NCBI RefSeq assembly: GCF_000311845.1
Contig: NZ_HE978575.1
Span: 17,846-63,405, forward strand
DNA length: 45,560 nt
Reading direction: 5' to 3'
Source of the DNA: Enorma massiliensis phI
Lineage (GTDB): Bacteria; Actinomycetota; Coriobacteriia; Coriobacteriales; Coriobacteriaceae
Shown here: positions 9,811 to 27,743 of the stretch, in pieces
How positions within the stretch are numbered: the stretch's first letter is position 1
Layout: every line of letters starts with the position of its first letter
The notes under the pieces: generated by a model
The model's input: the letters and a program-made list of their open reading frames with translations, nothing else
Database searches by the model: none
What the model was told of the DNA's origin: nothing
Program-made: the position numbers and the translations under genes

Positions 9811-10078
9811 ATCTTGCCGAGTGTGGCCATTTGGCCGCACTCGGCACTTTTGTGAGCGATTGACTGGTCCGCTCGCCCGATTGCGCCGCGGGAAGCGCCG
9901 CGGTCTGCCAGCCCTGGAGCAAAAGTCCCGCCAAAGGATCGGATTTCATCGATGGGCCGGATACACCCCGCCGCGGGCTCAAGGGAGCCGCAGGTCAAAG
10001 CGTTGGCCTCTCGGTGGCTACTGCGCGTGCACCCAAAAATCCGATCCTTTGGCGGGACTTTTACGTGGCATCGCGCGC
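9811..10078. repeat. Dispersed intergenic repeat, copy 1, with long inverted repeat
   Basis: A region of about 270 bp after purD that is recognisably the same element as 22563-22853. It holds a hairpin of GCCGAGTGTGGCC (9816-9828) with GGCCGCACTCGGC (9833-9845), and a perfect 26-bp inverted repeat, 9921-9946 against 10037-10062, separated by 90 bp; its core is GTCCCGCCAAAGGATCGG. A - strand frame is open through both copies, but the structure suggests a repeat element rather than a gene. It may also act as a terminator for purD and for the converging esterase. Confidence 0.8.
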
Positions 10079-11192: not shown

Positions 11193-12809
11193 CTAGGAAT
11201 CCTTGCGTAGCGTGTAGATCTTATCGGCCAGCACAACCTGCAGGTAGTCGTCGGGATTGCGAACGTCAACACCGTAGATCTTCCGCACGCGCTCAACGCG
11301 GTAGCGCACCGTCTTGGGGTGCAGGTACAGCTGCTCGGCGGTCTTGGGATAGCTCATGCCGTTCGCACAGAGGCTCACGACCGTCTGGAACAGGTCAGGG
11401 GCGTCTTGATGCAGCGCGCTGAGGCGGGGGTCAATATACGTGTCGAGCTGCGACGGGTCGTCCACGCCCAGTAAGAGCTTGTATAGGCCCAGATCGTCGT
11501 AGCGAACCTCAAAGTCGCCCTGCGTCTCATCGAAGAGCCGGTATGCGTTCATCACCTCGTTGTTGATGGCTGGCAGCGAGTATCGGTCGGTGGCCGAGCT
11601 GATCACCGCGAGGTGCGTGAAGAGCGGGAGAATCGAAGAGTTGTGCAGGTCGGCGAGAACGTTCCGCACGGTGTCGAGGGAAAAGCCTGAGTTTTCGTTC
11701 CGCACGTTGTGCAGAAAGACGATGCGGTCGCCGTTCACGAAGTACACGATGCCTGGATAGGATGCCCGCAGGCTCCGACGCAGGGCTTGCAGCAGCTCGT
11801 CGATGCGGTCGGCATCGATGGGGTCGACTACGCGCGTGCGTACGAGCAGCGCCTCGTACAAGGGGTACCGATCGATGCCGAGCAGCGCAAGCGCGGAGTC
11901 TATGCGCTCGTGCGAGCCGAAGCGATCGAGTAGCAGGTCGTGCACGGTGTTGTTGTTCTGGTAGAAGAGCTTTTGCTTGATGGCGTTCTGCTTCAAGATT
12001 TCCATCTGCAGCAGGCTCACGATGTTCTCGACGGTCATGGTGTCGAGCGGCGTGAGCTCGCGGTCGGCGTTATGGATGATGAGGTAGTAGTCCACCCCAT
12101 CAGAGCTGGGTATGCGCACGGCGAGTGCCTGAACGGTCTGCGGTTGGTGCGAGGCGCCGAACCCCTTGTCGTAGAAGAGTTTCGCATCGAAGTAGGCGTG
12201 CGTCTGGTAGGCCTCGGGCTCGCGCCTGTTAAACGAATAGCCGGTGAATTCGGTGAGTACCTGTTCGGTGCCGGTGCGGCGGTCGCGCACGGTATCGAAG
12301 TATGTGACCTCTGCATGCAGGGCGTTTTTGAGCGGGCTCAAGATATAGGGTATCGACGGCTGCTTGAGCGCAAGCGCCATGAGGTGCTTGTGCACGTCGA
12401 AGAAGCGATTGAGCAGGGTGAGGTTTGAGTCCAGGATATGTCCTAGCACGTCGAGCAGAATGGACTCGTATTTAACCTGCGGCGCGAGCTTGATGAGCGG
12501 CAGGTCGAAATCGTCGCAGAGCTCGATGATGCGCTCCGGGGCCTCAACCATAAGGCGCTCCGGCTTGAACACCAGAGCGCCGATGCCGATGGAGCTCATG
12601 GTGCGGAAGAACATCACCGTCTCGCTTTCGGAGAGGTGCTCCAGCGCGTAGAAGCTCGAGATGATGAGCTGGCCGCGTTTGCCCCAGTTTTCGATATCGA
12701 TTGCCTCGAGCACCATGGCGCCGGTGATCTCGTTATCCATGCCGGTCTTACCGGCGATGATGCTCGCTCCTTCAAACGATGGGAGCAGCAAGATCTCTCT
12801 CACTATCAC
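11193..12809 (-). CDS. PucR family transcriptional regulator
   Basis: A 538-residue regulator. The N-terminal PucR domain (about residues 1-125) starts VREILLLPSFEGASIIAG, a middle region of unclear fold follows, and the C-terminal helix-turn-helix of the PucR type is near residues 475-535 (TAEQLYLHPKTVRYRVERV). PucR proteins control purine and allantoin catabolism in Bacillus and related functions elsewhere. It is divergent from the AllF-AllG gene, so it is the obvious candidate activator or repressor of that island; the inducer is unknown. The start is GTG 12809 with AGAGG upstream. A TATACT on the minus strand near 12840 is a possible -10. Confidence 0.9.
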   Translation of the reverse strand: MIVREILLLPSFEGASIIAGKTGMDNEITGAMVLEAIDIENWGKRGQLIISSFYALEHLSESETVMFFRTMSSIGIGALVFKPERLMVEAPERIIELCDDFDLPLIKLAPQVKYESILLDVLGHILDSNLTLLNRFFDVHKHLMALALKQPSIPYILSPLKNALHAEVTYFDTVRDRRTGTEQVLTEFTGYSFNRREPEAYQTHAYFDAKLFYDKGFGASHQPQTVQALAVRIPSSDGVDYYLIIHNADRELTPLDTMTVENIVSLLQMEILKQNAIKQKLFYQNNNTVHDLLLDRFGSHERIDSALALLGIDRYPLYEALLVRTRVVDPIDADRIDELLQALRRSLRASYPGIVYFVNGDRIVFLHNVRNENSGFSLDTVRNVLADLHNSSILPLFTHLAVISSATDRYSLPAINNEVMNAYRLFDETQGDFEVRYDDLGLYKLLLGVDDPSQLDTYIDPRLSALHQDAPDLFQTVVSLCANGMSYPKTAEQLYLHPKTVRYRVERVRKIYGVDVRNPDDYLQVVLADKIYTLRKDS

Positions 12810-13021
12810 GGGGAGCCTCTTTCCACAGCCTCTCTTTCAGTATACGAACACGCTGCAGCAGGTCATTTCCGCTCTGGATAAAGAAACGGATGTTTTCCTA
12901 TCCTCCTCGCCAATGAAAAGAAAAAGCCCAGATGATTCAATGCGAGGGTGTAGGGGAGGGCCGTCACCCGGGAAGACGGTCGCCCCTGATCCTTCAGGAA
13001 GTTGCAGAAAAGGAGGAGACG

Positions 13022-16000
13022 ATGCTCAAGACTGTGGTCAAGCCAAATTCGTATCAGGACTCCATCAACCTGATGCTGCTGACCAACAAGATTAACACCC
13101 TCGACGGTGTCATCCAGAGCCAAATCATGATGGGCACCGACGCGAACAAGGATATCTTCTTTAACGCTGGCCTGCTTACCGATGAGGCCAAGGCTGCGAA
13201 CCCGAGCGACATGGTCATCGTCGTCGAGACCGACGACGAGGCCGTGGTGGACACCGTGCTCGCTGAGACCGAGGCCTTCCTTGCCGACCTTTCGGTCAAG
13301 AAGGAGGCCGCCGGCGGCCCCGCTGAGGCGACCAGCTGGGAGGAGGCCATCGCGCAGTTGCCCGACGCCAACATGGCGCTCTTCTCCATCCCTGGCGAGT
13401 ATGCTGCTCCCGAGCTTGAGCGCGCGCTCGACCTGGGGCTCAACGTGTTCAGCTTCACCGACAACGTTGCGCTTGAGGACGAGGTTCGCCTGAAGCAGAA
13501 GGCGCACGAGAAGGGCCTGCTCTTCATGGGTCCCGACTGCGGCACCGGCGTTATCTCGAGCGTGCCGATCGCCTTCACCAACGTCATCAACCCGGGCAAC
13601 ATCGGTATCGTGGGCGCTTCCGGCACGGGCATCCAGGAGGTTACCTGCATGATCGACCGCTTGGGCGGCGGTTGCGTGCACGCCATCGGCACCGGTGGCC
13701 GCGACCTCAACGAGAAGGTCGGCGCGGTGACGGTAAAGGACGCCATCGTGGCGCTCGAGCACCACGATCCCACCGACGTCATCTGCGTCATCTCCAAGCC
13801 GCCTGCGCCTGCCGTGCGTGATGAGGTCGTTGACCTGCTGGAGAAGTGCACCAAGCCGGTCGTCGCCATCTTCATCGGCGAGAAGCCCGAGGCGCATCAG
13901 GGCAAGGTCTACCTCGCGCACACGCTTGAGGAGTGCGCGCGCATCGCCGTCGACCTTGCGAACGGTGCCGAGGTTAAGAAGAACTATCTCGAGCCGCTCA
14001 ACCTTACCGTTGACGAGCCGCTCGGCGCCGACAAGACCGTGATCGGCCTGTACTCTGGCGGCACCCTCGCTGGCGAGGCTGCCATGATGATCACCGAGGC
14101 GCTCGACCTCGGCGAGATCATCAAGGAGGATGGCTACATGCTGCGCCATGGCGGCTACGACGTGATCGACCTTGGCGACGACGTGTACACCCAGGGCCGC
14201 CCGCATCCCATGATCGACCCGGACGTCCGCATCAAGATGATGCGCGATTACGCCGCTATGGACACCACCGGCGTCATCGTCTTCGACTGCGTGCTGGGCT
14301 ACGGCTGCCATCCGGATATGGCCTCTGCGCTCGCGCCCGTCATCGCCGAGTGCAAGGCGGCCGCCGCGGCCGAGGGTCGCACGGTGCACTTCGTGGGCAC
14401 CGTCGTGGGCACGAGCCACGACCCGCAGGACTACGAGCGCTCCATCAAGATCCTCGAGGACGCCGGCGCCATCATGGAGGAGTCCAACGCCATGGCCGTC
14501 CGCGCCGCGCTTGCCATGAAGGGCGTGGAGTTCACCGAGGAGGACCGCGAGGTCGTTCCGTATGAGGTCAAGGACGACTCGCCTCTGCCCGAGCCGAGCG
14601 AGGCCGTCATGGAGCTTCTCACCACCAAGCCGCGCGTGATCAACGTGGGCGTGGAGAGCTTCAACGACCCGCTTCGCGCCTATGGTGCCAAGAGCGTTCA
14701 GTACACCTGGAAGCCCATGGCCGGCGGCAACAAGCGGATGATTCACCTGCTCACCGAGCTCGCTAAGGTCGAGGGCATCGACGAGGCCAACGAGCGCATC
14801 TGCCAGCGCTTCAAGGAGAGCCAGCCGCAGCTCGTGGACGTCGTGGTGGCCAAGGACGTCATCCCCGAGCTCAACCGCGAGAAGAAGACGCTTCTGCATG
14901 CAGGCCCCCCGATCACCTGGGAGAACATGCAGGGCCCCATGCGCGGTTCGTGCATCGGCGCAGCGCTCTTCGAGGGTTGGGCTGAGACGGAGGAAGAGGC
15001 CGTCAAGATGCTCGAGGCCGGCGAGGTCGAGTTCATCCCCTGCCACCACTGCCATGCCGTAGGCCCCATGGGCGGCATCACCTCCGCCAACATGGCCGTG
15101 CTCAAGGTCGTGAACCTTGCGGACGACACCACCGCCTACTGCACCATGAACGAGGGCATCGGCAAGGTGCTGCGCTTCGGCGCGTACAGCCAGGAGGTCG
15201 TCGACCGCCTGCACTGGATGGCCGACGAGCTCGGCCCCGTGCTCTCCAAGGCGCTCAAACTCTCCGATGGCGGCATCAACCTCAACGTGCTCATTGCGCG
15301 CGCCATCACCCAGGGCGACGAGTTCCACCAGCGCAACATGGCCGCGACCCTGAATCTCCTCAAGGAGCTGGCGCCGCTCATCGTGAAGACGGATGCTTCC
15401 GAGGGCGCCAAGGAGCGCGTGATCCAGTTCCTGGCCGACACCGATCAATTCTTCCTGAACATCATGATGGCCATGGGCAAGGCAATCGTTGACTACGTGC
15501 GCAAGGACGAGGAGGGTTGCGTGGTCTCGACCATGACCCGCAACGGCTATGAGTTCGGCGTGCGCGTGACCGGCCTCGGCGACGAGTGGTTCTGCGCTCC
15601 GGTGAACACGCCCATGGGCCTGTACTTCACCGGATTCACGGCTGAGGATGGTTGCCCCGACAACGGCGACTCCTCCATTACCGAGACCGTGGGCGTGGGC
15701 GGCATGGCCATGGTCGCGGCGCCCGGCGTGACCCGCTTCGTTGGTGCCGGCGGGTTCGAGGACGCGCTCAACATCTCCAACGAGATGGAGCAGATCTGCG
15801 TCGAGCACAATCCCAACTGGTCCATCCCCACGTGGGACTTCAAGGGTACGTGCCTCGGCATCGATATCCGCAAGGTCGTGGCCACGGGCATCACCCCGAT
15901 CATCAACACCGGCATCGCCCACAAGAAGGCGGGCATCGGCCAGGTCGGCGCCGGTACGGTGCGCGCGCCGCTCGCGTGCTTCGAGAAGGCGCTCGAGGCG

Positions 16001-16027
16001 TACTGCGCCAAGCTCGGCATCGAGTAA
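13022..16027 (+). CDS. allFG: Fused FdrA-YlbE (AllF-AllG), oxamate carbamoyltransferase subunits
   Basis: A 1001-residue protein that joins two polypeptides separate in E. coli. Residues 1 to about 580 match FdrA: KGLLFMGPDCGTG, the succinyl-CoA-synthetase-like GASGTGIQEVTCMIDRLGGG, DLGDDVYTQGRPHPMIDP and, at its end, WKPMAGGNKRM. From about residue 590 the YlbE (DUF1116) part follows: LLHAGPPITWENMQGPMRGS, EFIPCHHCHAVGPMGGITS. As I recall, work on E. coli assigned FdrA, YlbE and YlbF (AllF, AllG, AllH) to oxamate carbamoyltransferase, which splits oxalurate with phosphate into oxamate and carbamoyl phosphate. ATG 13022 follows AAAAGGAGGAGACG; an upstream ATG at 12932 is unsupported. allH follows after 15 bp. 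Confidence 0.9.
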   Translation: MLKTVVKPNSYQDSINLMLLTNKINTLDGVIQSQIMMGTDANKDIFFNAGLLTDEAKAANPSDMVIVVETDDEAVVDTVLAETEAFLADLSVKKEAAGGPAEATSWEEAIAQLPDANMALFSIPGEYAAPELERALDLGLNVFSFTDNVALEDEVRLKQKAHEKGLLFMGPDCGTGVISSVPIAFTNVINPGNIGIVGASGTGIQEVTCMIDRLGGGCVHAIGTGGRDLNEKVGAVTVKDAIVALEHHDPTDVICVISKPPAPAVRDEVVDLLEKCTKPVVAIFIGEKPEAHQGKVYLAHTLEECARIAVDLANGAEVKKNYLEPLNLTVDEPLGADKTVIGLYSGGTLAGEAAMMITEALDLGEIIKEDGYMLRHGGYDVIDLGDDVYTQGRPHPMIDPDVRIKMMRDYAAMDTTGVIVFDCVLGYGCHPDMASALAPVIAECKAAAAAEGRTVHFVGTVVGTSHDPQDYERSIKILEDAGAIMEESNAMAVRAALAMKGVEFTEEDREVVPYEVKDDSPLPEPSEAVMELLTTKPRVINVGVESFNDPLRAYGAKSVQYTWKPMAGGNKRMIHLLTELAKVEGIDEANERICQRFKESQPQLVDVVVAKDVIPELNREKKTLLHAGPPITWENMQGPMRGSCIGAALFEGWAETEEEAVKMLEAGEVEFIPCHHCHAVGPMGGITSANMAVLKVVNLADDTTAYCTMNEGIGKVLRFGAYSQEVVDRLHWMADELGPVLSKALKLSDGGINLNVLIARAITQGDEFHQRNMAATLNLLKELAPLIVKTDASEGAKERVIQFLADTDQFFLNIMMAMGKAIVDYVRKDEEGCVVSTMTRNGYEFGVRVTGLGDEWFCAPVNTPMGLYFTGFTAEDGCPDNGDSSITETVGVGGMAMVAAPGVTRFVGAGGFEDALNISNEMEQICVEHNPNWSIPTWDFKGTCLGIDIRKVVATGITPIINTGIAHKKAGIGQVGAGTVRAPLACFEKALEAYCAKLGIE

Positions 16028-16042
16028 GAGGGCGAGGTTGCC

Positions 16043-16936
16043 ATGGGCATCACCTCTGTGAGCGACTACGCATTGGGTCACCTGTCGCAGCACGCGACGG
16101 GAACGGTGCACAGCGTATTCTCTTCGAGCTTGAATGTTGAGCTCGACGGACTGCTGCTGCATCTGGGGAGCAGCGACGCGCCGCTCTCCTGCCTGGGTGC
16201 GAACGTCGACGCGGAGGAGATGCCCGCGCTCGTGGGTTCCGCGGTGCAGGGGGACCGCGCCGTCTTTCGCGATGGGGTTCTGCGCATCTACAGCCGTGCG
16301 CGGGTGAGTGAGCTCGAGCTCTCCGCCGCGCCGGTGCGCTGCATGCGCGTCCCCGAGCTTGCCGGTGCGTTCCCGAACGATATCGATGCCGCCCTGCTGC
16401 GCGAGATCGGTGCCCTCGGCCTTGCCGACCGCACCGGGCTGCCGTGGCCGGATCGGTCTCGGAGCGCCGTGTCCGAGCTCGCTCGGTTCTCGGCCATGTG
16501 TCGTCGTGTGCTTGACAAGGGAGAACGGTCTTGCGGCGATGCGCAGGTTGAGGCTGCGGAGCGTGCTATGCACGGAGCCGTCGAATACCTGGTGGGTAGA
16601 GGCCTCGGCCTCACCCCGTCGGGCGATGACGTGCTCATGGGTTTTGGCACGGCGCTTCGTTTCCTGTATTGCGGGGACGTTTCGAGTATGGCACAAGCCT
16701 TTTTCGAGACGGTATCAAGTGTGGTTCCCGGTAAAACCACCGCGGTGAGTGAGGCATATTACCGGGCCATGGGGGAGGGGTACGCCAACGAGGACTACCT
16801 CGACCTGCTCGCTGTAGTGCGCGCGATGGACGAGCAGGCGCTCCCCGATGCGCTGGCACGAGTGCTCGAGCTCGGGCACACCTCGGGGGCCGACAGCCTC
16901 CTGGGTTTCGGCGCGGCGTTCTGTTGTTTGTTGTAA
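16043..16936 (+). CDS. allH: DUF2877 protein (YlbF/AllH), third oxamate carbamoyltransferase component
   Basis: A 297-residue protein of the DUF2877 family, with the conserved GRGLGLTPSGDDVLMGF near residues 188-204, a TTAVSEAYYRAMGEG segment and GHTSGADSLLGF near the C-terminus. The E. coli relative YlbF is about 270 residues and is needed with FdrA and YlbE for oxalurate cleavage. Here it starts 15 bases after the fused AllF-AllG gene, with GAGGGCGAGG as ribosome-binding site, and is followed 37 bases later by a transporter, so the three genes almost certainly form one operon. The role of the single component is not clear from sequence. Confidence 0.88.
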   Translation: MGITSVSDYALGHLSQHATGTVHSVFSSSLNVELDGLLLHLGSSDAPLSCLGANVDAEEMPALVGSAVQGDRAVFRDGVLRIYSRARVSELELSAAPVRCMRVPELAGAFPNDIDAALLREIGALGLADRTGLPWPDRSRSAVSELARFSAMCRRVLDKGERSCGDAQVEAAERAMHGAVEYLVGRGLGLTPSGDDVLMGFGTALRFLYCGDVSSMAQAFFETVSSVVPGKTTAVSEAYYRAMGEGYANEDYLDLLAVVRAMDEQALPDALARVLELGHTSGADSLLGFGAAFCCLL

Positions 16937-16973
16937 GCCGGGCTATCTCGGCTTTGTTGGAAAGGAAGGCATA

Positions 16974-18230
16974 ATGGCAGAAGTTAAGAAGAAAATCGAC
17001 CTGACCGTCCTCATGTTGATTTCTATGGCTCTTGCGGTCATCGCCGGTCTCGTGGTCGGCGAGCCCATGACCCAGCTCCAGTTCATCGGCGATATCTTCT
17101 TCGCCCTCATCCAGATGTCCATCCCGGTCTTCGTGCTGGCCACCGTGGTCAAGTCCGTGGGTGGCCTTACCCCGCAGACGCTTTCCGGTATTGCCGGCAA
17201 GGGCGTCATCATCTTCATCGTGTCCTCGGGTATCGCTGCTGCGCTCGGCATTGCCCTCGGCGTCATCTTCCAGCCTGGTGCCAGCGCTGGCACCGATGCC
17301 GTTATGGCAGCTGCCGGCTACGACGGCGAGGCTGTTGAGATGATGACCATCCAGGACACCCTCACCGGGTTCTTCGGTACCAACATCGTGGCTTCGCTTG
17401 CTAACGGCTCCATGATCCAGATCATCATCTTCGCCGTCGCCCTCGGCCTGGTCATCAGCTTCTGGCGCCAGACCCACGACGAGTGCAAGCTCTATGACAT
17501 CATCAGCGAGACCTCCGACCTGCTGCTCAACATCATCCGCGGCGTCATGACGATCGCTCCCATCGGCATCTTCTGCTACGTTTCCTCCATGGTCGCCTCC
17601 GTGGGCATGACCGTTCTGGTTCCGCTGGCGAAGTACTTCCTCGTGATGGCGCTCGGCATGGTCATCATGTTCGTTGCCTACTGCATCATCTGCGGTGCTT
17701 ACTGCAGGGTGAACCCGGTCAAGCTGGCCGGCAAGCTGGTCCGCACGCTCGTGACCGCCTTCACCACCATCTCTTCTGCCGTGACGCTCCCCACCGCTAT
17801 GGAGGACGCCAAGAAGAAGATCGGCATCCGCGAGGACGTCTGCGACGTGCTCCTGCCCCTTGGTGTGCCGCTGAACTCCAACGGCGTGGCCATCCACATG
17901 ACCGTGGATGCCCTCTGCATCGCCCAGCTCTATGGCATCGCCTTCGGCCCCTCTGACTTCCTGACCTGCTGGCTCATCTGCACCATGATCTCGTTCGTGA
18001 ACGCGGCAACCCCGGGCGCCTCGCTCGTGTCGCTCACCATGATGATCCCGGCGCTCGGCCTGCCCATGGAGGCCATCGGCATCTTCGGCGGTCTCGAGTA
18101 CCCCACCGGTGCCACCCGCACGCCGCTGAACGTTACCGGCGACGTGTTCGCCGCCATGCTCGTGGCTGGTCCCGACGGCATCGACCACGACATATTCGAT
18201 GGCAAAAAGGAGTATCAGGAAGCTGCCTAG
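16974..18230 (+). CDS. Dicarboxylate/amino acid:cation symporter family transporter, paralogue 1
   Basis: A 418-residue membrane transporter of the DAACS (glutamate/C4-dicarboxylate) fold with about eight hydrophobic segments and two re-entrant loops. The serine-rich loop reads TISSAVTLP, as in the family. The second key motif, NMDGT in glutamate and aspartate carriers, is here NSNGV (about residues 300-304), so the substrate is probably not glutamate. Position directly after allH suggests import of ureidoglycolate, oxalurate or a related carboxylate, or exchange for oxamate; this is inference. ATG 16974 follows AAGGAAGG. The protein shares long identical stretches with the next transporter gene. 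Confidence 0.85.
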   Translation: MAEVKKKIDLTVLMLISMALAVIAGLVVGEPMTQLQFIGDIFFALIQMSIPVFVLATVVKSVGGLTPQTLSGIAGKGVIIFIVSSGIAAALGIALGVIFQPGASAGTDAVMAAAGYDGEAVEMMTIQDTLTGFFGTNIVASLANGSMIQIIIFAVALGLVISFWRQTHDECKLYDIISETSDLLLNIIRGVMTIAPIGIFCYVSSMVASVGMTVLVPLAKYFLVMALGMVIMFVAYCIICGAYCRVNPVKLAGKLVRTLVTAFTTISSAVTLPTAMEDAKKKIGIREDVCDVLLPLGVPLNSNGVAIHMTVDALCIAQLYGIAFGPSDFLTCWLICTMISFVNAATPGASLVSLTMMIPALGLPMEAIGIFGGLEYPTGATRTPLNVTGDVFAAMLVAGPDGIDHDIFDGKKEYQEAA

Positions 18231-18297
18231 CGCGTAGCTGCTGTATCTAGCGAGGGCGCCGCGCACACGTCTCCTCTTGGCGACGCCCTCCGCTTAT

Positions 18298-18314
18298 CGC
18301 GGGCTTTGCCCGCG
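18298..18314 (+). other. GC-rich hairpin between the two transporter genes
   Basis: CGCGGGC (18298-18304) pairs with GCCCGCG (18308-18314) around TTT. There is no T-run, so it is a processing or partial termination signal at best. The 239-bp gap also contains GAGGGCG and CGCCCTC 25 bases apart (18252-18290). Both could reduce expression of the downstream transporter relative to the upstream one. Confidence 0.35.
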
Positions 18315-18469
18315 GTGCCTTGAGTGTACCAAGGTTGGTCCCCACTCGGACCTAAAAGCCTTGCGCTGCATGCCTACGGGCTGCAGCCGCCCGGGATGTC
18401 CCCCTGGCCTTCCGGGTGTGTTTCATCCGCCTACGTGGGGAAGAGTGGTTTCCCCGGGGATGTGATTCT

Positions 18470-19750
18470 ATGACAACCGAATCTGTCAACCCACCTAAGC
18501 GCTTTAAGTACAACGCAACGCTCGCCATCGTGGTCGCCATGGTCGCCGGATATATTGTCGGCGTTATTGGCGGGGAGAGCCTCTCACAGATCCAATTCAT
18601 CGGTGACGTCTTCTTCAGGCTCGTACAGATGGGAATCGTTCCCTTCGTGATGTGCACCATCATCGAGGCGGTGGGCGGCCTCACCGCGCGCGATCTCTCC
18701 GGTATCGGCGTCAAGGGCATCGCGTGGTTCGCGGGGTCATCGATCCTCGCCGCCTCTTGCGGTGTCGCCGCGGCGACGATCTTCCAGCCGGGTGCCGGCC
18801 TTGCCGACGCGGCCCTGGTCCAGGAGGCGACGTACGATGCTTCCAGTGCGACCGCTGTTACGGTTCAGGATACGATTACCAACTTCTTCAGCAGCAACAT
18901 CGTTTCATCGATGGGCGCGGGTGCCATGGTGCCTTGCATCGTGTTCTCCATCGCGCTCGGCCTGGCGATCAGCTGGTGGCGCAGCAACCATGAGGGCGAG
19001 CCTTGCCCCGTGTTCGATTTCATCGCGCAGTTTGGCGAGCTTCTGCTCGTCGTTATTCGCGGCGTCATGACCATCGCGCCCATCGGCATCTTCTGCTATG
19101 TGTCGTCGATGGTGGGGCAGCTCGGCCCCGAGGTGTTGATTCCGCTCCTCAAGTACCTCCTGGTGCTCGGAGGCACGGTGTTCGCATTCCTCGTGCTGTG
19201 GATCATCGTGGTGTGCGTGCGCTGTTCGCTCAGCCCTGCCGTGCTCATCCGCCACATCTGGCGCATGTCCTTTATGGCGATCGCGACCATATCCTCTGCA
19301 GTGACCCTGCCGGTCGAGATGGACGATGCCAAGAACAAGATTGGCGTTCGCGAGGATATCGCGGACCTCGTTCTTCCGCTTGGCATGCCGCTCAACTCAA
19401 ACGGCGCTTCTATCCACCTCGCGGTGACGGCCATTACGATCGCGCAGATCTACGGCATGACCTTCGGTGGGCTTGACTTCGTATTCCTTACCGTGATCTC
19501 GACCCTGCTCTCGCTGGCAAACGCTGTGGCGCCGGGTGCGGACATCGTGTCTCTTACGATGATCGTCCCGCAGCTGGGGCTCCCGCTTTCGAGCATCGGT
19601 ATCTTCGCGGGCCTCACGTATCCAGTCGGTGCGATCCGCACCATCCTGAATGTGGACTCCGATGTGTTCTGCGCCATGATGGTGGCAGCGGGCGAGAAGG
19701 ACGGTATTGACCGCGACGTGTTCTACGGGAAAAAGGCGCTCGAGAAGTAA
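18470..19750 (+). CDS. Dicarboxylate/amino acid:cation symporter family transporter, paralogue 2
   Basis: A 426-residue paralogue of the preceding transporter; both contain GVMTIAPIGIFCYVSSMV without change and the serine loop TISSAVTLP. Here the motif equivalent to NMDGT is NSNGA (about residues 308-312), again lacking the aspartate that contacts the amino group of amino acid substrates in characterised homologues. Two carriers in one catabolic cluster may split uptake and product export, or handle two related acids. The start is ATG 18470 with a weak GGGGA at 18455-18459; no stronger site is near. It is followed by allD 142 bp later, so it likely shares the island's transcript or regulator. 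Confidence 0.85.
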   Translation: MTTESVNPPKRFKYNATLAIVVAMVAGYIVGVIGGESLSQIQFIGDVFFRLVQMGIVPFVMCTIIEAVGGLTARDLSGIGVKGIAWFAGSSILAASCGVAAATIFQPGAGLADAALVQEATYDASSATAVTVQDTITNFFSSNIVSSMGAGAMVPCIVFSIALGLAISWWRSNHEGEPCPVFDFIAQFGELLLVVIRGVMTIAPIGIFCYVSSMVGQLGPEVLIPLLKYLLVLGGTVFAFLVLWIIVVCVRCSLSPAVLIRHIWRMSFMAIATISSAVTLPVEMDDAKNKIGVREDIADLVLPLGMPLNSNGASIHLAVTAITIAQIYGMTFGGLDFVFLTVISTLLSLANAVAPGADIVSLTMIVPQLGLPLSSIGIFAGLTYPVGAIRTILNVDSDVFCAMMVAAGEKDGIDRDVFYGKKALEK

Positions 19751-19797
19751 TCGAGTGGACTGCCTGATTGCGTATCGCGCGTTGCGTCGCCTGAGCT

Positions 19798-19825
19798 GGC
19801 GGACGTACACGACATGTCGTCCGCC
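19798..19825 (+). terminator. Hairpin after transporter 2, possible weak terminator
   Basis: GGCGGACG (19798-19805) pairs with CGTCCGCC (19818-19825) around a 12-base loop. No clear T-run follows, so it may attenuate rather than end transcription before allD. Confidence 0.4.
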
Positions 19826-19892
19826 CGCTTGTGCCAAGGTATCAAGCTCTGTGCTCGATGTGCGGGCACGGGCGTAACGTAAGGAGGCTTTC

Positions 19893-20945
19893 ATGCTTGT
19901 TACTCGTGACGAACTCAAAGAACTCATGAAGAAGAAGTTCATGGCCGCCGGCATGCATGAGAACCATGCCGACGACATGGCAGAGGTGCTCGCGTGGTCG
20001 AGCGAGCGCGGCCTGCACAGCCATGGCGAGGTGCGCGTTGAGTACTACACCGAGCGCATCTCCAAGGGCGGCATGACCATCGATCCCAAGGTTACGTGGA
20101 CGCAGACCGGACCGTGCTCGGGCATTCTCGACGCTGACAACGGCTGCGGTTACCCCTTCGCGATCGAGGGTATGCAGAAGGCCATCGACATGGCCAAGGA
20201 GAACGGCATCGGCTTCGTGGGCGTGGCGAACGTCTCGCACACCGGCGCGATCGGCTATTACACCGAGATGGCCGCCAAGCAGGGCATGATCGGTCTTTCC
20301 TGCACGCAGTCCGACCCGATGGTCATCCCGTATGGTGGCGCCGAGCCGTTCTACGGCACGAACCCCATCGCGCTCGCGGCCCCTACGGCCGATGACCGCA
20401 TCGTGAGCTTCGATATGGCCACGACCGTGCAGGCGTGGGGGAAGATCCTCGACGCCAAGAGCGCCGGCCGCTCCATTCCCGAGGGCTGGGCGGTTGACGA
20501 GGACGGCAGCCCGGTCACCGATCCGCACAAGGTGAACGCGCTGGTTGCCATTGCCGGTCCCAAGGGCTATGGCCTCATGATGATGGTCGACATTCTCTCC
20601 GGCGTGTTGTTGGGCGTGCCCGCGGGCAAGCATGTCTCCTCCATGTATCACGATCTTTCCGAGGGCCGTCGTCTCGGCCACCTCAACGTGGCGATCAACC
20701 CTGAGTACTTCTGCGGGGCGGACGAGTTCCGCGCTCACATGTCCGAGGTGCTCGACGAGCTCAACGCCGTCAAGCCGGGCGTGGGCTTCGATAAGGTGTA
20801 TTGGCCCGGCCAGCGTGCGCAGATGCGCATCCAGGCAACTAAGGACGCCGGCGGTATCGAGATCGTGGATGACATCTACGATTACCTCGTGAGCGATGAC
20901 CTGTATCGCCATAGCTGGGATCACAAGAACCGTTTCGCCGAGTAG
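19893..20945 (+). CDS. allD: Ureidoglycolate dehydrogenase
   Basis: A 350-residue member of the Ldh_2 (malate/L-lactate/ureidoglycolate dehydrogenase) family, close to the E. coli AllD length of 349. Long stretches match AllD as I know it: RVEYYAERISKGG appears as RVEYYTERISKGG, and SDPMVIPYGGAE, FDMATTVQAWGKILDA, GPKGYGLMMMVD, VSSMYHDL and GIEIVDDIYDYL are conserved. The SHTGA segment (about residues 113-117) holds the likely catalytic histidine. AllD oxidises (S)-ureidoglycolate to oxalurate with NAD, which supplies the substrate for the AllF-AllG/AllH enzyme here. ATG 19893 follows GTAAGGAGGC. The strong match makes this the anchor for the pathway assignment. Confidence 0.94.
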   Translation: MLVTRDELKELMKKKFMAAGMHENHADDMAEVLAWSSERGLHSHGEVRVEYYTERISKGGMTIDPKVTWTQTGPCSGILDADNGCGYPFAIEGMQKAIDMAKENGIGFVGVANVSHTGAIGYYTEMAAKQGMIGLSCTQSDPMVIPYGGAEPFYGTNPIALAAPTADDRIVSFDMATTVQAWGKILDAKSAGRSIPEGWAVDEDGSPVTDPHKVNALVAIAGPKGYGLMMMVDILSGVLLGVPAGKHVSSMYHDLSEGRRLGHLNVAINPEYFCGADEFRAHMSEVLDELNAVKPGVGFDKVYWPGQRAQMRIQATKDAGGIEIVDDIYDYLVSDDLYRHSWDHKNRFAE

Positions 20946-21212
20946 CAAGATCACGCGTGCGAGGCACGATATGTGCTGTTGCGATGCCGCCGACGCTTGC
21001 GCCGCAGGCGGGCACCTTGGCGTCGTGCGAGGCGCGCTGCGCATGGCATTGATTTGGTGCCGATTGGAATCGCAGCGCAGCGCGATTCGCGGATCGCGGT
21101 GCAGTGCATAGCGCGAGCTGCGATGCGGCGCGAATCGCGGGTCGCATCGCAGCTATTTGACGAAGACGGGCTGCTGCAGGCAGCCTGGGGTGGCCCGTCT
21201 CGTGCTTCCCGC
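20946..21212. other. GC-rich spacer with nested inverted repeats
   Basis: No gene is supported. GCGATTCGCG (21082-21091) pairs with CGCGAATCGC (21129-21138), and words such as GCGATGC and TCGCATCGC recur around it. It separates allD from the AT-rich control region of the first carbamate kinase gene. It could fold strongly in RNA, but there is no T-run. Confidence 0.4.
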
Positions 21213-21274
21213 AAAATTGTCGTAATGAATATACAAAATTTGACTCTATTTTGTACTTTTTCTACGACAATTTT
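21213..21274. promoter_or_regulatory. AT-rich nested palindrome upstream of carbamate kinase 1
   Basis: AAAATTGTCGTA (21213-21224) is the exact reverse complement of 21263-21274, and inside it TACAAAAT (21232-21239) pairs with ATTTTGTA (21248-21255); the two intervening arms are 7 bases each. The AT content contrasts with the GC-rich sequence just before it. The word ATATACAAAA also occurs beside the GntR-type operator at 25326-25335, so the same regulator may act at both sites. A stem in the RNA is the alternative reading. Confidence 0.6.
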
Positions 21275-21347
21275 TTAAATCCTAGCGAATGAAATCAAGC
21301 TGAGCAGCTAATGCCAGCTGACTGTAAGTTACGAAAGGAAGTTTTCC

Positions 21348-22310
21348 ATGTCCAAGCCTCTTGGCAAACCCGACCGTATCGTCGTCGCGCTCGGCGGCAA
21401 TGCGCTGGGCAACACGCCCGCTGAGCAGATTGAGCGCGTGAACAATGCTGCCCACGCACTCCTCGGCCTCATCGAGCAGGGCAACGAGATCATTATCACC
21501 CATGGCAACGGCCCGCAGGTCGGCATGATCCAGAACGCCTTCGCCGCGGCCCACGATGCTATCGGGACACCTGAGATGGACCTGCCCGAGTGCGGCGCCA
21601 TGAGCCAGGGCTATATCGGCTACCACCTGCAGCAGGGCATCGGCCGCGAGATGCACAAGCGCTACAAGCGCTGGCACGTGGCCACCGTGGTCACCCAGAT
21701 TGAGGTCGACCCGGAGGATCCGAGCTTCCAGAACCCCACCAAGCCCATCGGCCCGTTCTATACCGAGGAGCAGGCCCGCGAGATTATGGCAGCGGAGCCG
21801 GACAAGGTTTTCGTGGACGATTCTGGCCGCGGTTGGCGCCGCGTCGTGGCGAGCCCCGATCCCAAGAAGATCGTCGAGGCCCCTTCGATTCTGAACCTTC
21901 TTGATAACGAGTTCATCGTCATCGCCTGCGGTGGCGGTGGCATCCCCGTGGTCCGTGACTACGATAACAAGGGCTGCTATAAGGGTGTGGCAGCGGTAAT
22001 CGACAAGGATGCCGGCGGCGAGCTGCTGGCCGAGGATTGCGACGCCGATGTGCTCTTCCTGCTCACTGCTGTGGAACATGTGGCTGTGAACTTCGGTACG
22101 CCTGAGCAGCGCGACCTGACCGACCTGACCGCCGACGAGGCCGAGAAACTCGCCGACGAGGGCCAGTTCGGCAAGGGCTCCATGGAGCCGAAGGTCCGCG
22201 CGGCGATTAAGTTCGCCCGCAGCCGCAAGGGCCGCACCTGCATCATCGGTGCGCTCGACAAGGCCGCCGAGACTATGTCCGGTTTATCTGGCACCCGTAT
22301 TCACGGGTAA
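21348..22310 (+). CDS. arcC: Carbamate kinase, copy 1
   Basis: A 320-residue carbamate kinase, which transfers phosphate from carbamoyl phosphate to ADP and releases ammonia and CO2. Family marks are VVALGGNALG at residues 12-21, ITHGNGPQVG near 51-60, DSGRGWRRVVASPDP near 160-174 and VIACGGGGIPV near 190-200. It differs from copy 2 at about 40 positions by eye. No ornithine carbamoyltransferase or arginine deiminase gene is adjacent, and allD lies upstream, so carbamoyl phosphate from oxalurate is the likely substrate, matching the role of YbcF (AllK) in E. coli. ATG 21348 follows CGAAAGGAAG. A strong terminator lies 42 bp after the stop. Confidence 0.95.
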   Translation: MSKPLGKPDRIVVALGGNALGNTPAEQIERVNNAAHALLGLIEQGNEIIITHGNGPQVGMIQNAFAAAHDAIGTPEMDLPECGAMSQGYIGYHLQQGIGREMHKRYKRWHVATVVTQIEVDPEDPSFQNPTKPIGPFYTEEQAREIMAAEPDKVFVDDSGRGWRRVVASPDPKKIVEAPSILNLLDNEFIVIACGGGGIPVVRDYDNKGCYKGVAAVIDKDAGGELLAEDCDADVLFLLTAVEHVAVNFGTPEQRDLTDLTADEAEKLADEGQFGKGSMEPKVRAAIKFARSRKGRTCIIGALDKAAETMSGLSGTRIHG

Positions 22311-22351
22311 GCTGGCGCGTTTATTGGACGGCGGTTATCGTCTGTTGTGGC

Positions 22352-22388
22352 GGGCCGGCGGAGCGTTGCACTCCGCCGGCCCGTTTCT
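22352..22388 (+). terminator. Rho-independent terminator after carbamate kinase 1
   Basis: GGGCCGGCGGAG (22352-22363) pairs perfectly with CTCCGCCGGCCC (22371-22382) around a 7-base loop, then GTTTCT. The T-run is short but the stem is very strong. It separates the two carbamate kinase genes into different transcripts. Confidence 0.75.
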
Positions 22389-22544
22389 GCTTGCAGCCCG
22401 GGGCGCTCTGTGGGGCGCGGTGTGGGGTGTAGGCGTATGGCGCAAAAGCGCGTCGCGCGTGGGTCTGGTGCAGGGCGCATCGCGGGTGCACGTCGCGCGG
22501 AGGCACTCAAAGAAGGCAGGGGAGCTCACGGGAGGGTGCATAAT

Positions 22545-22622
22545 CTTGACGAATGCGCGCACAAACTTGCCGAATGTCGCCATTTCGGGGCACTCAGCAA
22601 GTTTGTGCGCGCATTCGTCAAG
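22545..22622. repeat. Perfect 26-bp inverted repeat with 26-base loop
   Basis: Bases 22545-22570 are the exact reverse complement of 22597-22622; the core of the arm is GAATGCGCGCACAAACTTGC. The right-hand part of the loop resembles the hairpin of repeat copy 1 (9816-9845), so this appears to be an elaborated version of the same element's left end. It overlaps repeat copy 2. Confidence 0.8.
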
Positions 22623-22853
22623 TTTGTGAACGATTGGCCGGCCCGCCCGCCTGGAAGCGCCGCGTGAAGCGCCGTGGTCGGCCAGCCCCGGAGCAAAAGT
22701 CCCGCCAAAGAATCGGATTTTCATCGATGGGCCGGATAGGCCGCGCCGTGGGCTCAGGGGAGCCGCAGGTCAGGACGCTGCCCCCATGCCGGCTACTGCG
22801 CGTGCGCCCAAAAATCCGATCCTTTGGCGGGACTTTTGCATGGCATCGCGCGC
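22563..22853. repeat. Dispersed intergenic repeat, copy 2
   Basis: About 290 bp clearly related to 9811-10078, with the same order of blocks: a CTTGCCGA hairpin region, GGAAGCGCCGC, GGAGCAAAAGTCCCGCCAAAG, ATCGATGGGCCGGATA, GGAGCCGCAGGTCA, GGCTACTGCGCGTGC and a closing GGCGGGACTTTT. The inverted repeat is 22695-22720 against 22812-22837 with one mismatch. It occupies the spacer between the two carbamate kinase genes. The same - strand reading frame stays open in both copies, which may lead to false gene calls. Confidence 0.8.
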
Positions 22854-22988
22854 CAACGCCCCTCCGAGCGGCTTTTTTCGGGCCCCGTTGGCGCTTTTCC
22901 CGCCCGGGCGGGGGATCGCGGTGCATCCGGGCTGCCGGCGGGGGCGCCGGAAGGCGGCCCAGCGTGCCGTGGGGCCAAATATAAAACA

Positions 22989-23003
22989 ATGCATGTTATG
23001 CAT
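22989..23003. promoter_or_regulatory. ATGCAT-GTT-ATGCAT palindromic site
   Basis: Two ATGCAT hexamers, each itself a palindrome, are separated by three bases in an AT-rich patch that follows GC-rich repeat DNA. The site lies 290 bp upstream of carbamate kinase 2. It looks like a protein-binding site, but no regulator can be named. Confidence 0.35.
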
Positions 23004-23214
23004 AAAACCGCGTTCAGCAATGAAGGGATGCGCGGAGGGGAGAAAAGCGCTTCGTTTGATGCGCGAGGCTCTTCTTTACCGTTGCTTTACCTCGAAAAAG
23101 TGGAGCATCACGAAACCACAACACGGCGATACGCTGAGCGGCAAATACCTACCGCTCATCCGTTATCTATCCTCTCTAAACTCTAAATATGAATAAAAAC
23201 GGGCATCTCGAGAA

Positions 23215-23245
23215 TATAATGCAAGCCTACCCGAGTGACTTGGGT
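23215..23245 (+). promoter_or_regulatory. Promoter -10 and operator-like palindrome of carbamate kinase 2
   Basis: A perfect TATAAT lies at 23215-23220 in an AT-rich stretch; no good -35 is seen at 17 bp, so an activator may be needed. Just downstream, ACCCGAGTGACTTGGGT (23229-23245) is an imperfect palindrome placed at or after the expected transcription start, a position typical of repressor sites or of a small leader hairpin. Confidence 0.5.
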
Positions 23246-23292
23246 GGAATTGCATGAACGTTTTTACAAACTTTCGGCGGAAAGGAATGACC

Positions 23293-24255
23293 ATGTCCAA
23301 GCCCATCGGCAAGCCCGATCGTATCGTCGTCGCGCTCGGCGGCAACGCCCTCGGCGACACCCCCCAGGAGCAGATCGAGAAGGTCGGCCACGCCGCCCAC
23401 GCGCTGCTCGGCCTCATCGAGCAGGGCAACGAGATCATCATCACCCACGGCAACGGCCCGCAGGTCGGCATGATCCAGAACGCCTTCGCCGCCGCGCACG
23501 ACGCCATTGGCACCCCCTCCATGGACCTGCCCGAGTGCGGCGCCATGAGCCAGGGCTACATCGGCTACCACCTGCAGCAGGGCATCGGCCGCGAGATGCA
23601 TCGCCGCTACAAGCGCTGGCACGCCGCCACGGTCGTGACCCAGATCGAGTGCGACCCGGACGACCCGGCGTTCCAGAACCCCACCAAGCCCATCGGCCCG
23701 TTCTACACCGAGGAGCAGGCCAAGGCGCTCATGGAGGAGAACCCCGAGATGACCTTCGTCGAGGACTCCGGCCGCGGCTGGCGCCGCGTCGTGGCGAGCC
23801 CCGAGCCTAAGAAGATCGTCGAGGCCGATTCCATCCTCAACCTTCTTGACAACGAGTTCATCGTCATCGCCTGCGGTGGTGGCGGCATCCCCGTGGTGCG
23901 CGATTACAACAACAAGGGCTGCTACAAGGGCGTGGCCGCCGTTATCGACAAGGACATGGGCGGCGAGCTCCTCGCCGAGGATTGCGACGCTCAGGTGCTC
24001 TTCCTGCTCACCGCCGTCGAGCACGTGGCCATTAACTTTGGCAAGCCCGACCAGCAGGACCTGACCGAGATCAGCGCCGACGAGGCCGAGAAACTCGCCG
24101 ACGAGGGCCAGTTCGGCAAGGGCTCCATGGAGCCGAAGGTCCGCGCCGCCATCAAGTTCGCCCGCAGCCGCAAGGGCCGCGTGTGCATCATCGGCGCGCT
24201 CGACAAGGCCGCCGAGACCATGGCCGGTCTCTCCGGCACCCGCATCTACGCGTAA
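23293..24255 (+). CDS. arcC: Carbamate kinase, copy 2
   Basis: A 320-residue carbamate kinase that aligns with copy 1 end to end without gaps, with roughly 280 of 320 residues the same by eye. All catalytic motifs (VVALGGNALG, THGNGPQVG, GGGGIPV) are intact, so both enzymes should be active. Third positions are even more GC-biased than in copy 1, a sign of strong codon selection and possibly higher expression. It has its own promoter region and terminator, and lies between the ureidoglycolate island and the dimethylarginase locus, so it may serve carbamoyl phosphate from either source. ATG 23293 follows GGAAAGGAATG; ATG 23287 is too close to that site. Confidence 0.95.
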   Translation: MSKPIGKPDRIVVALGGNALGDTPQEQIEKVGHAAHALLGLIEQGNEIIITHGNGPQVGMIQNAFAAAHDAIGTPSMDLPECGAMSQGYIGYHLQQGIGREMHRRYKRWHAATVVTQIECDPDDPAFQNPTKPIGPFYTEEQAKALMEENPEMTFVEDSGRGWRRVVASPEPKKIVEADSILNLLDNEFIVIACGGGGIPVVRDYNNKGCYKGVAAVIDKDMGGELLAEDCDAQVLFLLTAVEHVAINFGKPDQQDLTEISADEAEKLADEGQFGKGSMEPKVRAAIKFARSRKGRVCIIGALDKAAETMAGLSGTRIYA

Positions 24256-25412: not shown

Positions 25413-26189
25413 ATGACCAAGTTCAGCCACGTCATCATCCGTCGTCCCGGCAAGTCGCTTAGCAACGGCATCACGAGCGCGCCGGAGCTCGGCCAGCCCA
25501 TTTACGAGCGCGCCATCGAGGAGCACTACGACTACGAGCACGCTCTCGAGCAGTGCGGCGTTGACGTCACGGTGCTTCCCGCTCTCGAGCAGTACCCCGA
25601 CAGCTGCTTCGTCGAGGATCCCGCGGTCATCACCCGTTGCGGCGCCATCATCACCAATCCGGGTGCCGACTCCCGCAACGGCGAGAAGGACGAGATTGAG
25701 CCGGTCGTTCGTCGGTTCTTCGACGACGAGCATGTGAAGCACATCGTGAGCCCCGGTACCCTCGATGGCGGCGACGTCATGATGGTGGGCGACCACTTCT
25801 ACGTGGGCCGCTCCGCGCGCACCAATGAGGAGGGCATCCGCCAGTTCATCGAGATCCTCGAGGGCTGGGGTCTCGAGGGCTCCGAGGTCCCGCTGGAGGA
25901 GGTCCTGCACCTCAAGACCGGCGTGAACTACATCGAGAACAACAACATGCTGGTTTCGGGCGAGTTCATCGACAAGCCGGACTTTGCCCAGTACAACAAG
26001 ATCGTTGTGCCCGAGGAAGAGGCCTACGGTGCCAACTGCATCTGGGTGAACGACACCGTCATCGTTGCCGAGGGCTACCCGACCGTGCTCAAGGCGGTCC
26101 AGGACCTGGGCTACAAGACGCTCGTGGTCGATACCTCCGAGTACCGCAAGGTCGACGGCGGCCTTTCCTGCCTGTCGCTGCGTTTCTAA
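25413..26189 (+). CDS. Dimethylarginine dimethylaminohydrolase-family enzyme
   Basis: A 258-residue enzyme of the guanidine-modifying superfamily, close to the 254 residues of Pseudomonas dimethylarginine dimethylaminohydrolase. Features: FSHVIIRRPGKSLSNGITS at the N-terminus, PDSCFVEDPAVI, GTLDGGDVM, the histidine of LHLKTGVNY (His166) and the nucleophile Cys253 in LSCLSLRF near the C-terminus. The family hydrolyses methylated arginines to citrulline and methylamines; the motifs are unlike classical arginine deiminase, but activity on arginine itself cannot be excluded. ATG 25413 follows AAGGAGG. An ArcD-like antiporter gene follows after a terminator. No enzyme that consumes citrulline is in the window. 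Confidence 0.85.
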   Translation: MTKFSHVIIRRPGKSLSNGITSAPELGQPIYERAIEEHYDYEHALEQCGVDVTVLPALEQYPDSCFVEDPAVITRCGAIITNPGADSRNGEKDEIEPVVRRFFDDEHVKHIVSPGTLDGGDVMMVGDHFYVGRSARTNEEGIRQFIEILEGWGLEGSEVPLEEVLHLKTGVNYIENNNMLVSGEFIDKPDFAQYNKIVVPEEEAYGANCIWVNDTVIVAEGYPTVLKAVQDLGYKTLVVDTSEYRKVDGGLSCLSLRF

Positions 26190-26202
26190 GGTGTTCTTTT
26201 CG

Positions 26203-26231
26203 GGGGCCGGCCTGCGTGTCGGCCCCTTTTT
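26203..26231 (+). terminator. Rho-independent terminator after the dimethylarginase gene
   Basis: GGGGCCG (26203-26209) pairs with CGGCCCC (26220-26226), followed by TTTTT. It sits between the enzyme and antiporter genes, so it probably sets a lower level for the antiporter by partial readthrough. Confidence 0.75.
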
Positions 26232-26261
26232 ACGTCTACGCAAGTAGGGAAGGGAGCTCGT

Positions 26262-27743
26262 ATGGCACAGGACCATGAGGTCGTCGAGCGCGTTGGCGAC
26301 GACGGTATCATCGATCCTAACGGTCTCGATCTTTTCCGCCTCACGATGATGGTCATTACCGCGAGTATCTGCGGCGGCATCTTCTCGCTCGCGGGCGATA
26401 TGGCCGCTGGCGGTGCGAACTCCGGCGCCGTCATCGTCTCGTGGGCCATCTGTTTCATTGGCGTGTTCGCACTCATGATGGTGTTCAACGGCCTGTCGCA
26501 AGCGCGCCCTGATCTTACGGGCGGCATCTATGCGTATGCCGCTGCAGGATTTGGCGATTACGTAGGCTTTAATTCCGCTTGGGGCTATTGGATCAGCGCA
26601 TGCCTCTCGAACGTGAGCTTCGCATTGCTGCTCTTCAGCGCGCTGGGGTATTTCTTCCCGGTGTTCGGTGAGGGCAACAACATGATTTCAATCATCTGCG
26701 CGAGCGTGTTCCTGTGGTTCCTCACGTTTTTGGTTACGCGCGGGGTTAAAGAGGCCGCTGGCATCAACACAATCGTCACGCTGGCGAAGCTCGTTCCGCT
26801 TGGCATGTTCGTGTTGTCCATCGTGCTTCTGGGCAAATTCAACCCGGATATCTTTATGGATAACTTCTGGGGCGAGCCCGGAGGCCCGAGTTTTGGTGAA
26901 CAGGTCGTCTCGACCATGATCGCGCTCGTCTGGGTGTTCACGGGCATCGAGGGCGCCGTCGTTATCTCGGGTCGTGCAAAATACGTGAAAGACGTAGGAC
27001 GAGCGACGGCTTTCGGTTTCATCGCCGTCTTCGTGCTCTACCTCATCATCTCGCTGCTCTCCCTCGGCATCATGCCGCGTGAAGAGATGGCCCAGCTCGC
27101 AACGCCCTCCATGGCGGGCATTCTTGAGCGCGCCATCGGTCCGGTAGGGGCGGCGGTCGTAAATCTCGGCGTGGTCCTCTCGCTTGTGGGCGCCATGCTC
27201 GGGTATGTGATCATCGCTTCCGAGACACCCTTCGAGGCTGCGCGCCAGGGCTCGTTCCCCAAGTCGTTCACCAAGACCAACGATCGCGGCGCCCCGATCG
27301 TGACGGTGCTTGTAAGCTCGAGCATCACCCAGCTGTTCCTTGTGCTATCTGCGGTTGCGGCAAGTACGTATCAGTTCTTCTATTCGTGCGCAGTCAACAC
27401 CATCCTCATCCCCTATGTGTGCTCCGCAGCCTATTACATGGTGATCGGCTGGAAGAACGAGCACCTGGACGGCCCTCGTGCGCCCAAACTCGCGACTGCG
27501 CGGTTCTTCGGCACGCTCGGCTTCATCTATACGATCTTCCTCGTGTGGTCTACGGGCCTTCAGGGTGTGATGATCACGACGATCCTGTTTGCCCCGGGCA
27601 TCTTGGTGTATGCGGCAGGAGAGAAGGGGCGCGGCAAGCCGGTGCTTCCTGCTGCGCATGACAAGGTCATAGCCTTGGTGGTCGTCATCGTTGCTCTTAT
27701 CTCGCTGTACCTGCATTTTTCTGGGATTGCCCCGATTGTGTAG
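26262..27743 (+). CDS. Amino acid antiporter, ArcD/basic amino acid-polyamine (APA) type
   Basis: A 493-residue transporter with about twelve membrane segments. The first carries the GGGIFSLAGD-like loop (CGGIFSLAGDMAAGG, residues 38-52); other family features are ARPDLTGGIYAYAAAGFG, WVFTGIEGAVVISGRAK and the region TPFEAARQGSFPKSFTKTN. These fit the arginine/ornithine antiporter group (ArcD, APC superfamily). Next to the dimethylarginase it probably imports a (methyl)arginine in exchange for citrulline or another product, but substrate cannot be read from sequence. ATG 26262 follows GGGAAGGGAG. It is the last gene of this small locus. Confidence 0.88.
   Translation: MAQDHEVVERVGDDGIIDPNGLDLFRLTMMVITASICGGIFSLAGDMAAGGANSGAVIVSWAICFIGVFALMMVFNGLSQARPDLTGGIYAYAAAGFGDYVGFNSAWGYWISACLSNVSFALLLFSALGYFFPVFGEGNNMISIICASVFLWFLTFLVTRGVKEAAGINTIVTLAKLVPLGMFVLSIVLLGKFNPDIFMDNFWGEPGGPSFGEQVVSTMIALVWVFTGIEGAVVISGRAKYVKDVGRATAFGFIAVFVLYLIISLLSLGIMPREEMAQLATPSMAGILERAIGPVGAAVVNLGVVLSLVGAMLGYVIIASETPFEAARQGSFPKSFTKTNDRGAPIVTVLVSSSITQLFLVLSAVAASTYQFFYSCAVNTILIPYVCSAAYYMVIGWKNEHLDGPRAPKLATARFFGTLGFIYTIFLVWSTGLQGVMITTILFAPGILVYAAGEKGRGKPVLPAAHDKVIALVVVIVALISLYLHFSGIAPIV

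Follow-up and report, generated by a model that had tools for sequence, protein, structure and literature searches.

The oxamate-carbamoyltransferase cluster of Enorma massiliensis phI contains two adjacent carriers of the DAACS/SLC1 family, which belong to a single clade lacking the amino-group ligand of the glutamate carriers and linked to the allFGH genes in several phyla. We regard this clade as a functionally new branch within a known family of carriers. The explanation we favour, at a rough probability of 55%, is that the two carriers would form the membrane step of a cassette for the fermentation of oxalurate or ureidoglycolate.

Organization of the cluster and integrity of the carriers

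The window, i.e., the whole stretch of 45,560 nucleotides analyzed here, derives from a 2.28 Mb genome (99.87% complete) of the Collinsella/Enorma group. The cluster spans window positions 11193–24255 in the order PucR (minus strand), AllF-AllG fusion, AllH, carrier 1, carrier 2, AllD and two carbamate kinases (Table 1). In the lower allantoin pathway of E. coli, AllD converts ureidoglycolate to oxalurate, from which AllFGH forms oxamate and carbamoyl phosphate (PMC11326118). A PucR-type regulator also adjoins AllFG in many related loci that hold a carrier pair. The two carbamate kinase genes share a repeat (D1, 87% over 300 nt, 21346–21645 versus 23291–23590), which may stem from a recent duplication or mean that each of two pathways has its own kinase.

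Table 1 Features of the cluster and of the two carriers (window positions; residues in GltPh numbering).
Feature	Position	Strand	Match or remark
PucR-type regulator, divergent to cluster	11193..12809	-	PF07905 + PF13556
AllF-AllG fusion, two oxamate carbamoyltransferase subunits	13022..16027	+	NCBIfam FdrA 650.8 bits, PF06545 AllG 283.9 bits
AllH, third oxamate carbamoyltransferase subunit	16043..16936	+	PF11392 78.8 bits
Carrier 1 (type A), DAACS/SLC1, 418 aa; proposed oxamate exporter	16974..18230	+	PF00375, type A clade
NSNGV replacing NMDGT (310–314), carrier 1	17874..17888	+	
Carrier 1 TM8 segment EYPTGATRTPLNVTGD	18096..18143	+	Asp394 to Gly (18108–18110); Arg397, Asn401, Asp405 kept
Carrier 2 (type B), DAACS/SLC1, 426 aa; proposed oxalurate/ureidoglycolate importer	18470..19750	+	PF00375, type B clade
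NSNGA replacing NMDGT, carrier 2	19394..19408	+	
Carrier 2 TM8 segment TYPVGAIRTILNVDSD	19616..19663	+	Asp394 to Gly (19628–19630); Arg397, Asn401, Asp405 kept
AllD, ureidoglycolate dehydrogenase	19893..20945	+	TIGR03175 529 bits, cut-off 496
Carbamate kinase 1 (carbamoyl phosphate to ATP)	21348..22310	+	TIGR00746 362.7 bits
Carbamate kinase 2, close copy of kinase 1	23290..24255	+	TIGR00746 360.4 bits

Besides that, a mostly intergenic stretch of ~245 nt is repeated at 9836–10078 and 22610–22853 (84–87% identity, 12.8 kb apart); its copies flank the cluster, and an inverted repeat of 41 nt lies close by (22536–22631). Next after carbamate kinase 2 and a GntR regulator come a gene resembling dimethylargininase (DDAH, 369 bits) and an antiporter of the arginine/ornithine type (25413–27743), which together look like a separate energy module for arginine derivatives. 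Scans for promoters and terminators gave signals no better than shuffle level.

Both carrier genes are intact, with ATG start codons at 16974 and 18470, and are located between allH and allD. A reading made from the sequence alone (hereafter the sequence-only reading) had described them as two DAACS paralogues beside the oxalurate genes, with a conserved TISSAVTLP and with NSNGV or NSNGA for NMDGT, and both the open reading frames and PF00375 bear this out. The proteins are 50–51% identical to each other and match PF00375 over their full length (E 1.5e-85 for carrier 1 and 4.2e-87 for carrier 2; 288 and 293 bits versus a curated cut-off of 27.9), which places them in the DAACS/SDF family. Against their orthologues, a dN/dS of ~0.09–0.13 indicates purifying selection on both genes. 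The AlphaFold model of carrier 1 (pLDDT 81.8, pTM 0.81) adopts the SLC1 fold, with Z scores of ~44 to GltPh and ASCT2; the alignment to GltPh 6x15 with VIA-align covered 396 residues (Z 43.7, rmsd 2.8). Among the specific NCBIfam models, the carriers stay below the cut-offs of the GltP glutamate/aspartate equivalog (152 bits for both, cut-off 638), of DctA (130 and 141 bits, cut-off 513) and of SstT (99 and 80 bits, cut-off 308).

Residues of the substrate and ion sites

Besides TISSAVTLP, both carriers retain Ser278, Asn310, Gly313, Arg397, Thr398, Asn401 and Asp405, while Met311 is changed to Ser, Asp312 to Asn, Thr314 to Val or Ala and Asp394 to Gly. In this family, Asp394 coordinates the amino group of the substrate and Arg397 holds the side-chain carboxylate; these residues determine whether an amino acid or a dicarboxylate is accepted, and whether the amino acid is an acidic or a neutral one (PMC12668577). 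The Na3 site includes Asp312 and the Na2 site Met311 (PMC8431971). Both carriers, having Gly at 394, lack the GltP-type amino-group ligand, and the ion-site ligands of Na+-coupled SLC1 members are not preserved, with Asn312 and Ser311 standing in for Asp312 of Na3 and Met311 of Na2. Since Asp312 is mainly a Na3 ligand, its loss bears first on ion coupling, and the carriers have probably lost or changed sodium coupling of the Na3 type. The loss of Asp394 and the role of Asp312 in the Na3 site had both been absent from the sequence-only reading.

That reading had instead suggested an amino-less substrate from the loss of NMDGT and the adjacent oxalurate genes. The motif is a poor guide, because some amino-acid carriers, namely SstT (NMAGA) and TcyP (GQNGC), lack NMDGT as well, as do further DAACS proteins that retain Asp394, and we discarded NSNG as a mark of amino-less substrates. 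The substrate idea itself is supported by the change at position 394, which is the stronger sign. Asp394 is replaced by Gly or Ala in all 70 clade members examined, with Arg397 retained in 69/70 and Asn401 in 70/70. Other DAACS proteins kept Asp394 in 18 of 20 cases, the exceptions being one carrier with Asn (L020) and E. coli DctA with Ser.

Compared with known systems, GltPh/GltTk and E. coli GltP share the fold, Ser278, Arg397, Asn401 and Asp405 with the carriers at ~29% identity, but differ in having NMDG rather than NSNG (Met311/Asp312 lost), as well as Thr314 and Asp394. SstT and TcyP resemble the carriers in lacking NMDGT but retain Asp394, and the SstT scores are low (80–99 of 308 bits). 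DctA, with Ser at 394 and amino-less substrates including orotate, a ureide carboxylate, is a precedent for the carriers; however, it keeps NLDGT and has a separate clade and gene context.

Oxamate, oxalurate and ureidoglycolate have one carboxylate each, whereas Arg397 of GltPh holds a second carboxylate. This counts against such mono-carboxylate substrates: the retained Arg397 would need to bind their carbonyl/oxo group, or else the substrate is a dicarboxylate. In the single carrier of Collinsella vaginalis (L063:9977–11284, the same gene as L042:9937–11214), Arg397 is replaced by Gly and position 314 is Lys, a possible relocation of the positive charge used in binding; its locus contains allC and allE.

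The carriers form one clade linked to allFGH

When 84,980 species were scanned with patterns from outside the motif, 77 loci with 91 carriers emerged. All 91 have N/G-S/A-x-G at positions 310–313 and Gly/Ala at 394; as the search patterns came from other stretches of the protein, the motif is not a matter of chance. The carriers form one clade (SH-aLRT 100) on a long stem (1.39), and a clade profile cleanly separates its Coriobacteriia members (at least 482 bits) from other DAACS proteins (at most 327 bits). The distinct carrier subgroup that had been suggested thus exists as one clade linked to allantoin/oxalurate genes in several phyla. Its definition by NSNG holds for the window pair and is too narrow for the clade, which also includes NSCG, NSTG and GSYG motifs and some branches without allG.

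Because the scan picked relatives by similarity, the linkage was tested in samples drawn regardless of similarity. Among 296 genomes of Coriobacteriia, allG occurred in 22 and clade carriers in 12 (22 genes); all 12 also had allG (hypergeometric P 8.6e-16, kinship ignored). All 22 clade genes lie within ~7 kb of allG, as opposed to none among the other DAACS matches listed. The Lachnospiraceae sample (299 genomes, allG in 18) gave clade carriers in eight genomes, each of them with allG, in five cases in cis (P 3e-11). Clade carriers also adjoin allFGH in Budvicia, Photobacterium, Proteiniclasticum, one Leptotrichiaceae genome and Butyricicoccus. NSNG types occurring mostly with glutamate or serine pathways, which would have spoken against the subgroup, were not seen. 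The exceptions are found among 35 genomes with a carrier but no allFG in cis: allG is located elsewhere in 25 and absent in 10, mainly actinomycetes with the GSYG/GSCG variant and Enterococcus/Streptococcaceae. These allG-less branches imply that the clade includes members with other jobs. The proposed oxalurate-carrier subgroup is a single clade and, with these exceptions, is linked to allFGH beyond chance.

In about 20 Lachnospiraceae-type loci (L074, L077, L083–L085, L092, L093, L096–L099 and others), an NSCG carrier adjoins a LytS-type sensor kinase, mostly together with a LytTR regulator. Systems of this kind sense pyruvate in other bacteria. These neighbours, like the allG-less genomes, count against the explanation favoured here. 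Four loci (L100, 7653–8882; L103; L104; L090) contain class V aminotransferases, which may be PucG-like ureidoglycine-glyoxylate aminotransferases that would make oxalurate directly. A second locus type with unfused allF/allG (L144, L146–L152) occurs in Eggerthellaceae-like genomes that lack allD; a GntP-like permease is its neighbour in three cases, and its carbamoyltransferase possibly has a different substrate. The AllD of one relative (G003:C10:9333–10372) is seemingly split into two frames. A 1112-aa DAACS fusion (L044) proved to be an artefact of a start set too far upstream.

Paralogue types and partner carriers

Within the Coriobacteriia, the clade comprises type A (window carrier 1), type B (window carrier 2) and type C. 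Each pair consists of one type A and one type B or C, and single carriers are never of type A (L061, type B; L063, type C; G232, basal). According to tblastn, a gene for an MFS or LctP carrier is present in 0/15 pair loci versus 17/19 single-carrier loci adjoining allFG, a count that leaves out two further loci too short to judge. The comparison amounts to 3–4 independent contrasts, each of which agrees with the prediction (p 0.25 by sign test, significance being unreachable at that n). The Proteiniclasticum pair arose independently. In the Lachnospiraceae, LctP also adjoins allFG at allantoin-importing loci that lack a clade carrier, which suits a role on the product side.

We rejected the idea that the carrier strictly takes the place of allantoin import (AllW/NCS1 plus AllB). 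It fits the Coriobacteriia, where within one genus G237 has allW and allB but no clade carrier and G232 a clade carrier but no allW and allB in the locus; it fails in the Lachnospiraceae, where in many loci an allantoin importer and allantoinase accompany the clade carrier, which is thus no simple replacement for them. Likewise, the absence of AllH from several pair loci, as suggested by the ORF-based annotation, was refuted by tblastn, which finds AllH in all Coriobacteriia pair loci.

Import and export demanded by the pathway

In the window genome, no match reached the cut-offs of AllB, AllC or AllE. The same holds for eight of nine further relatives with a clade carrier; the exception, C. 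vaginalis, has AllC and AllE. As neither allantoin nor allantoate can thus serve as its starting point, the pathway must take up ureidoglycolate or oxalurate. AllD gave no match genome-wide in the pair genomes G057, G236 and G243 and a weak match without an equivalog in G279; AllC, AllE and AllB were searched genome-wide in G057 and within the locus in the Olsenella genomes. Where AllD is missing, oxalurate is the sole substrate of the known enzymes. Oxalurate therefore suits the whole pair set better than ureidoglycolate, the import named in the sequence-only reading.

On the product side, E. coli converted 19.5 mM allantoin to 17.7 mM oxamate, recovered in supernatants with no carrier named; as nearly all allantoin ends up as oxamate outside the cell, export of oxamate is needed. 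Although released in bulk, oxamate is listed among the dead-end metabolites of E. coli (PMC3781023). In the literature searched, no carrier is named for oxamate, oxalurate or ureidoglycolate. The E. coli allantoin cluster (allW, allB, allC, allE, allD, allFGH, allK) has the same route from ureidoglycolate to oxamate and carbamoyl phosphate, but imports allantoin via AllW and contains no DAACS carrier.

Discussion

According to our explanation, ureidoglycolate (to be oxidised by AllD) or oxalurate would be imported, and AllFGH would cleave oxalurate with phosphate to oxamate and carbamoyl phosphate. Carbamate kinase would convert the latter to ATP, ammonia and CO2, leaving oxamate as a waste product that would have to exit the cell. 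The SLC1 fold, the retained carboxylate ligands (Ser278, Arg397, Asn401) and Gly in place of Asp394 suggest that the carriers bind amino-less acids, and it seems probable, judging from residues and linkage, that the allFGH-linked members carry those of the allantoin/oxalurate pathway. The division into an importer and an exporter, as the sequence-only reading had proposed, is what we infer from the missing allB, allC and allE, the paired types and the lack of MFS/LctP genes, and we advance it tentatively. Type B/C, including window carrier 2, would most likely be the importer of ureido acids, and type A (window carrier 1) would serve the exit of oxamate, standing where related loci have MFS or LctP; which paralogue imports is a guess read off the genomic context. 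Single carriers and types B/C may import ureido acids in general (allantoate in the presence of allC; in the window, ureidoglycolate or oxalurate), with type A having taken over oxamate export. As both acids are monoanions, paired transport could be an electroneutral exchange of precursor for product.

We consider it rather unlikely that both paralogues are importers of different preference (e.g., carrier 1 for ureidoglycolate and carrier 2 for oxalurate), with oxamate leaving otherwise. The identical substrate-site residues of the two carriers would agree with such a split, as would the variable entry into the pathway, AllD being present in some pair genomes and missing in others. However, types A and B co-occur whether or not AllD is present and hence do not track the entry compound, and the pair loci lack the MFS/LctP acid carriers that accompany most singles.

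Still less probable are DctA-like carriers of C4- or C2-dicarboxylates for general metabolism, linked to the cluster by co-regulation only. Arg397 is kept and DctA also lacks Asp394; nevertheless, 130–141 bits against the DctA cut-off of 513 separate the carriers from DctA, and their presence tracks allG in two independent samples, which is unexpected for a general dicarboxylate carrier. We give hardly any credence to ordinary glutamate/aspartate or serine carriers located here by chance. The closest solved structures and NCBIfam models are indeed those of amino-acid carriers, but both proteins fall far under every amino-acid carrier cut-off and have lost Asp394, which even SstT and TcyP keep, and the linkage is conserved across phyla.

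The proposed pair of importer and exporter has its closest functional counterpart in the arginine/ornithine antiporter of the arginine deiminase pathway, which would do the same job, precursor in and product out, beside a carbamoyltransferase and an ATP-making carbamate kinase; the antiporter, however, is one protein of the unrelated APC family, whereas the window has two SLC1 paralogues. For the field of SLC1 carriers, the clade is a naturally occurring branch in which the amino-group ligand is missing and the sodium site altered, and its testable residue change makes its members candidates for import and export of the pathway acids. It is possible, though we lean slightly against it, that they include the first known oxamate exporter and oxalurate/ureidoglycolate importer. 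AllFGH, carriers and carbamate kinase would then be a self-contained cassette by which gut bacteria without allantoinase may live partly on a late purine acid that others produce, much as in the arginine deiminase pathway. With regard to gut ecology, this suggests that some relatives of Collinsella, Enorma and Olsenella may use acids of purine breakdown from other microbes or the host.
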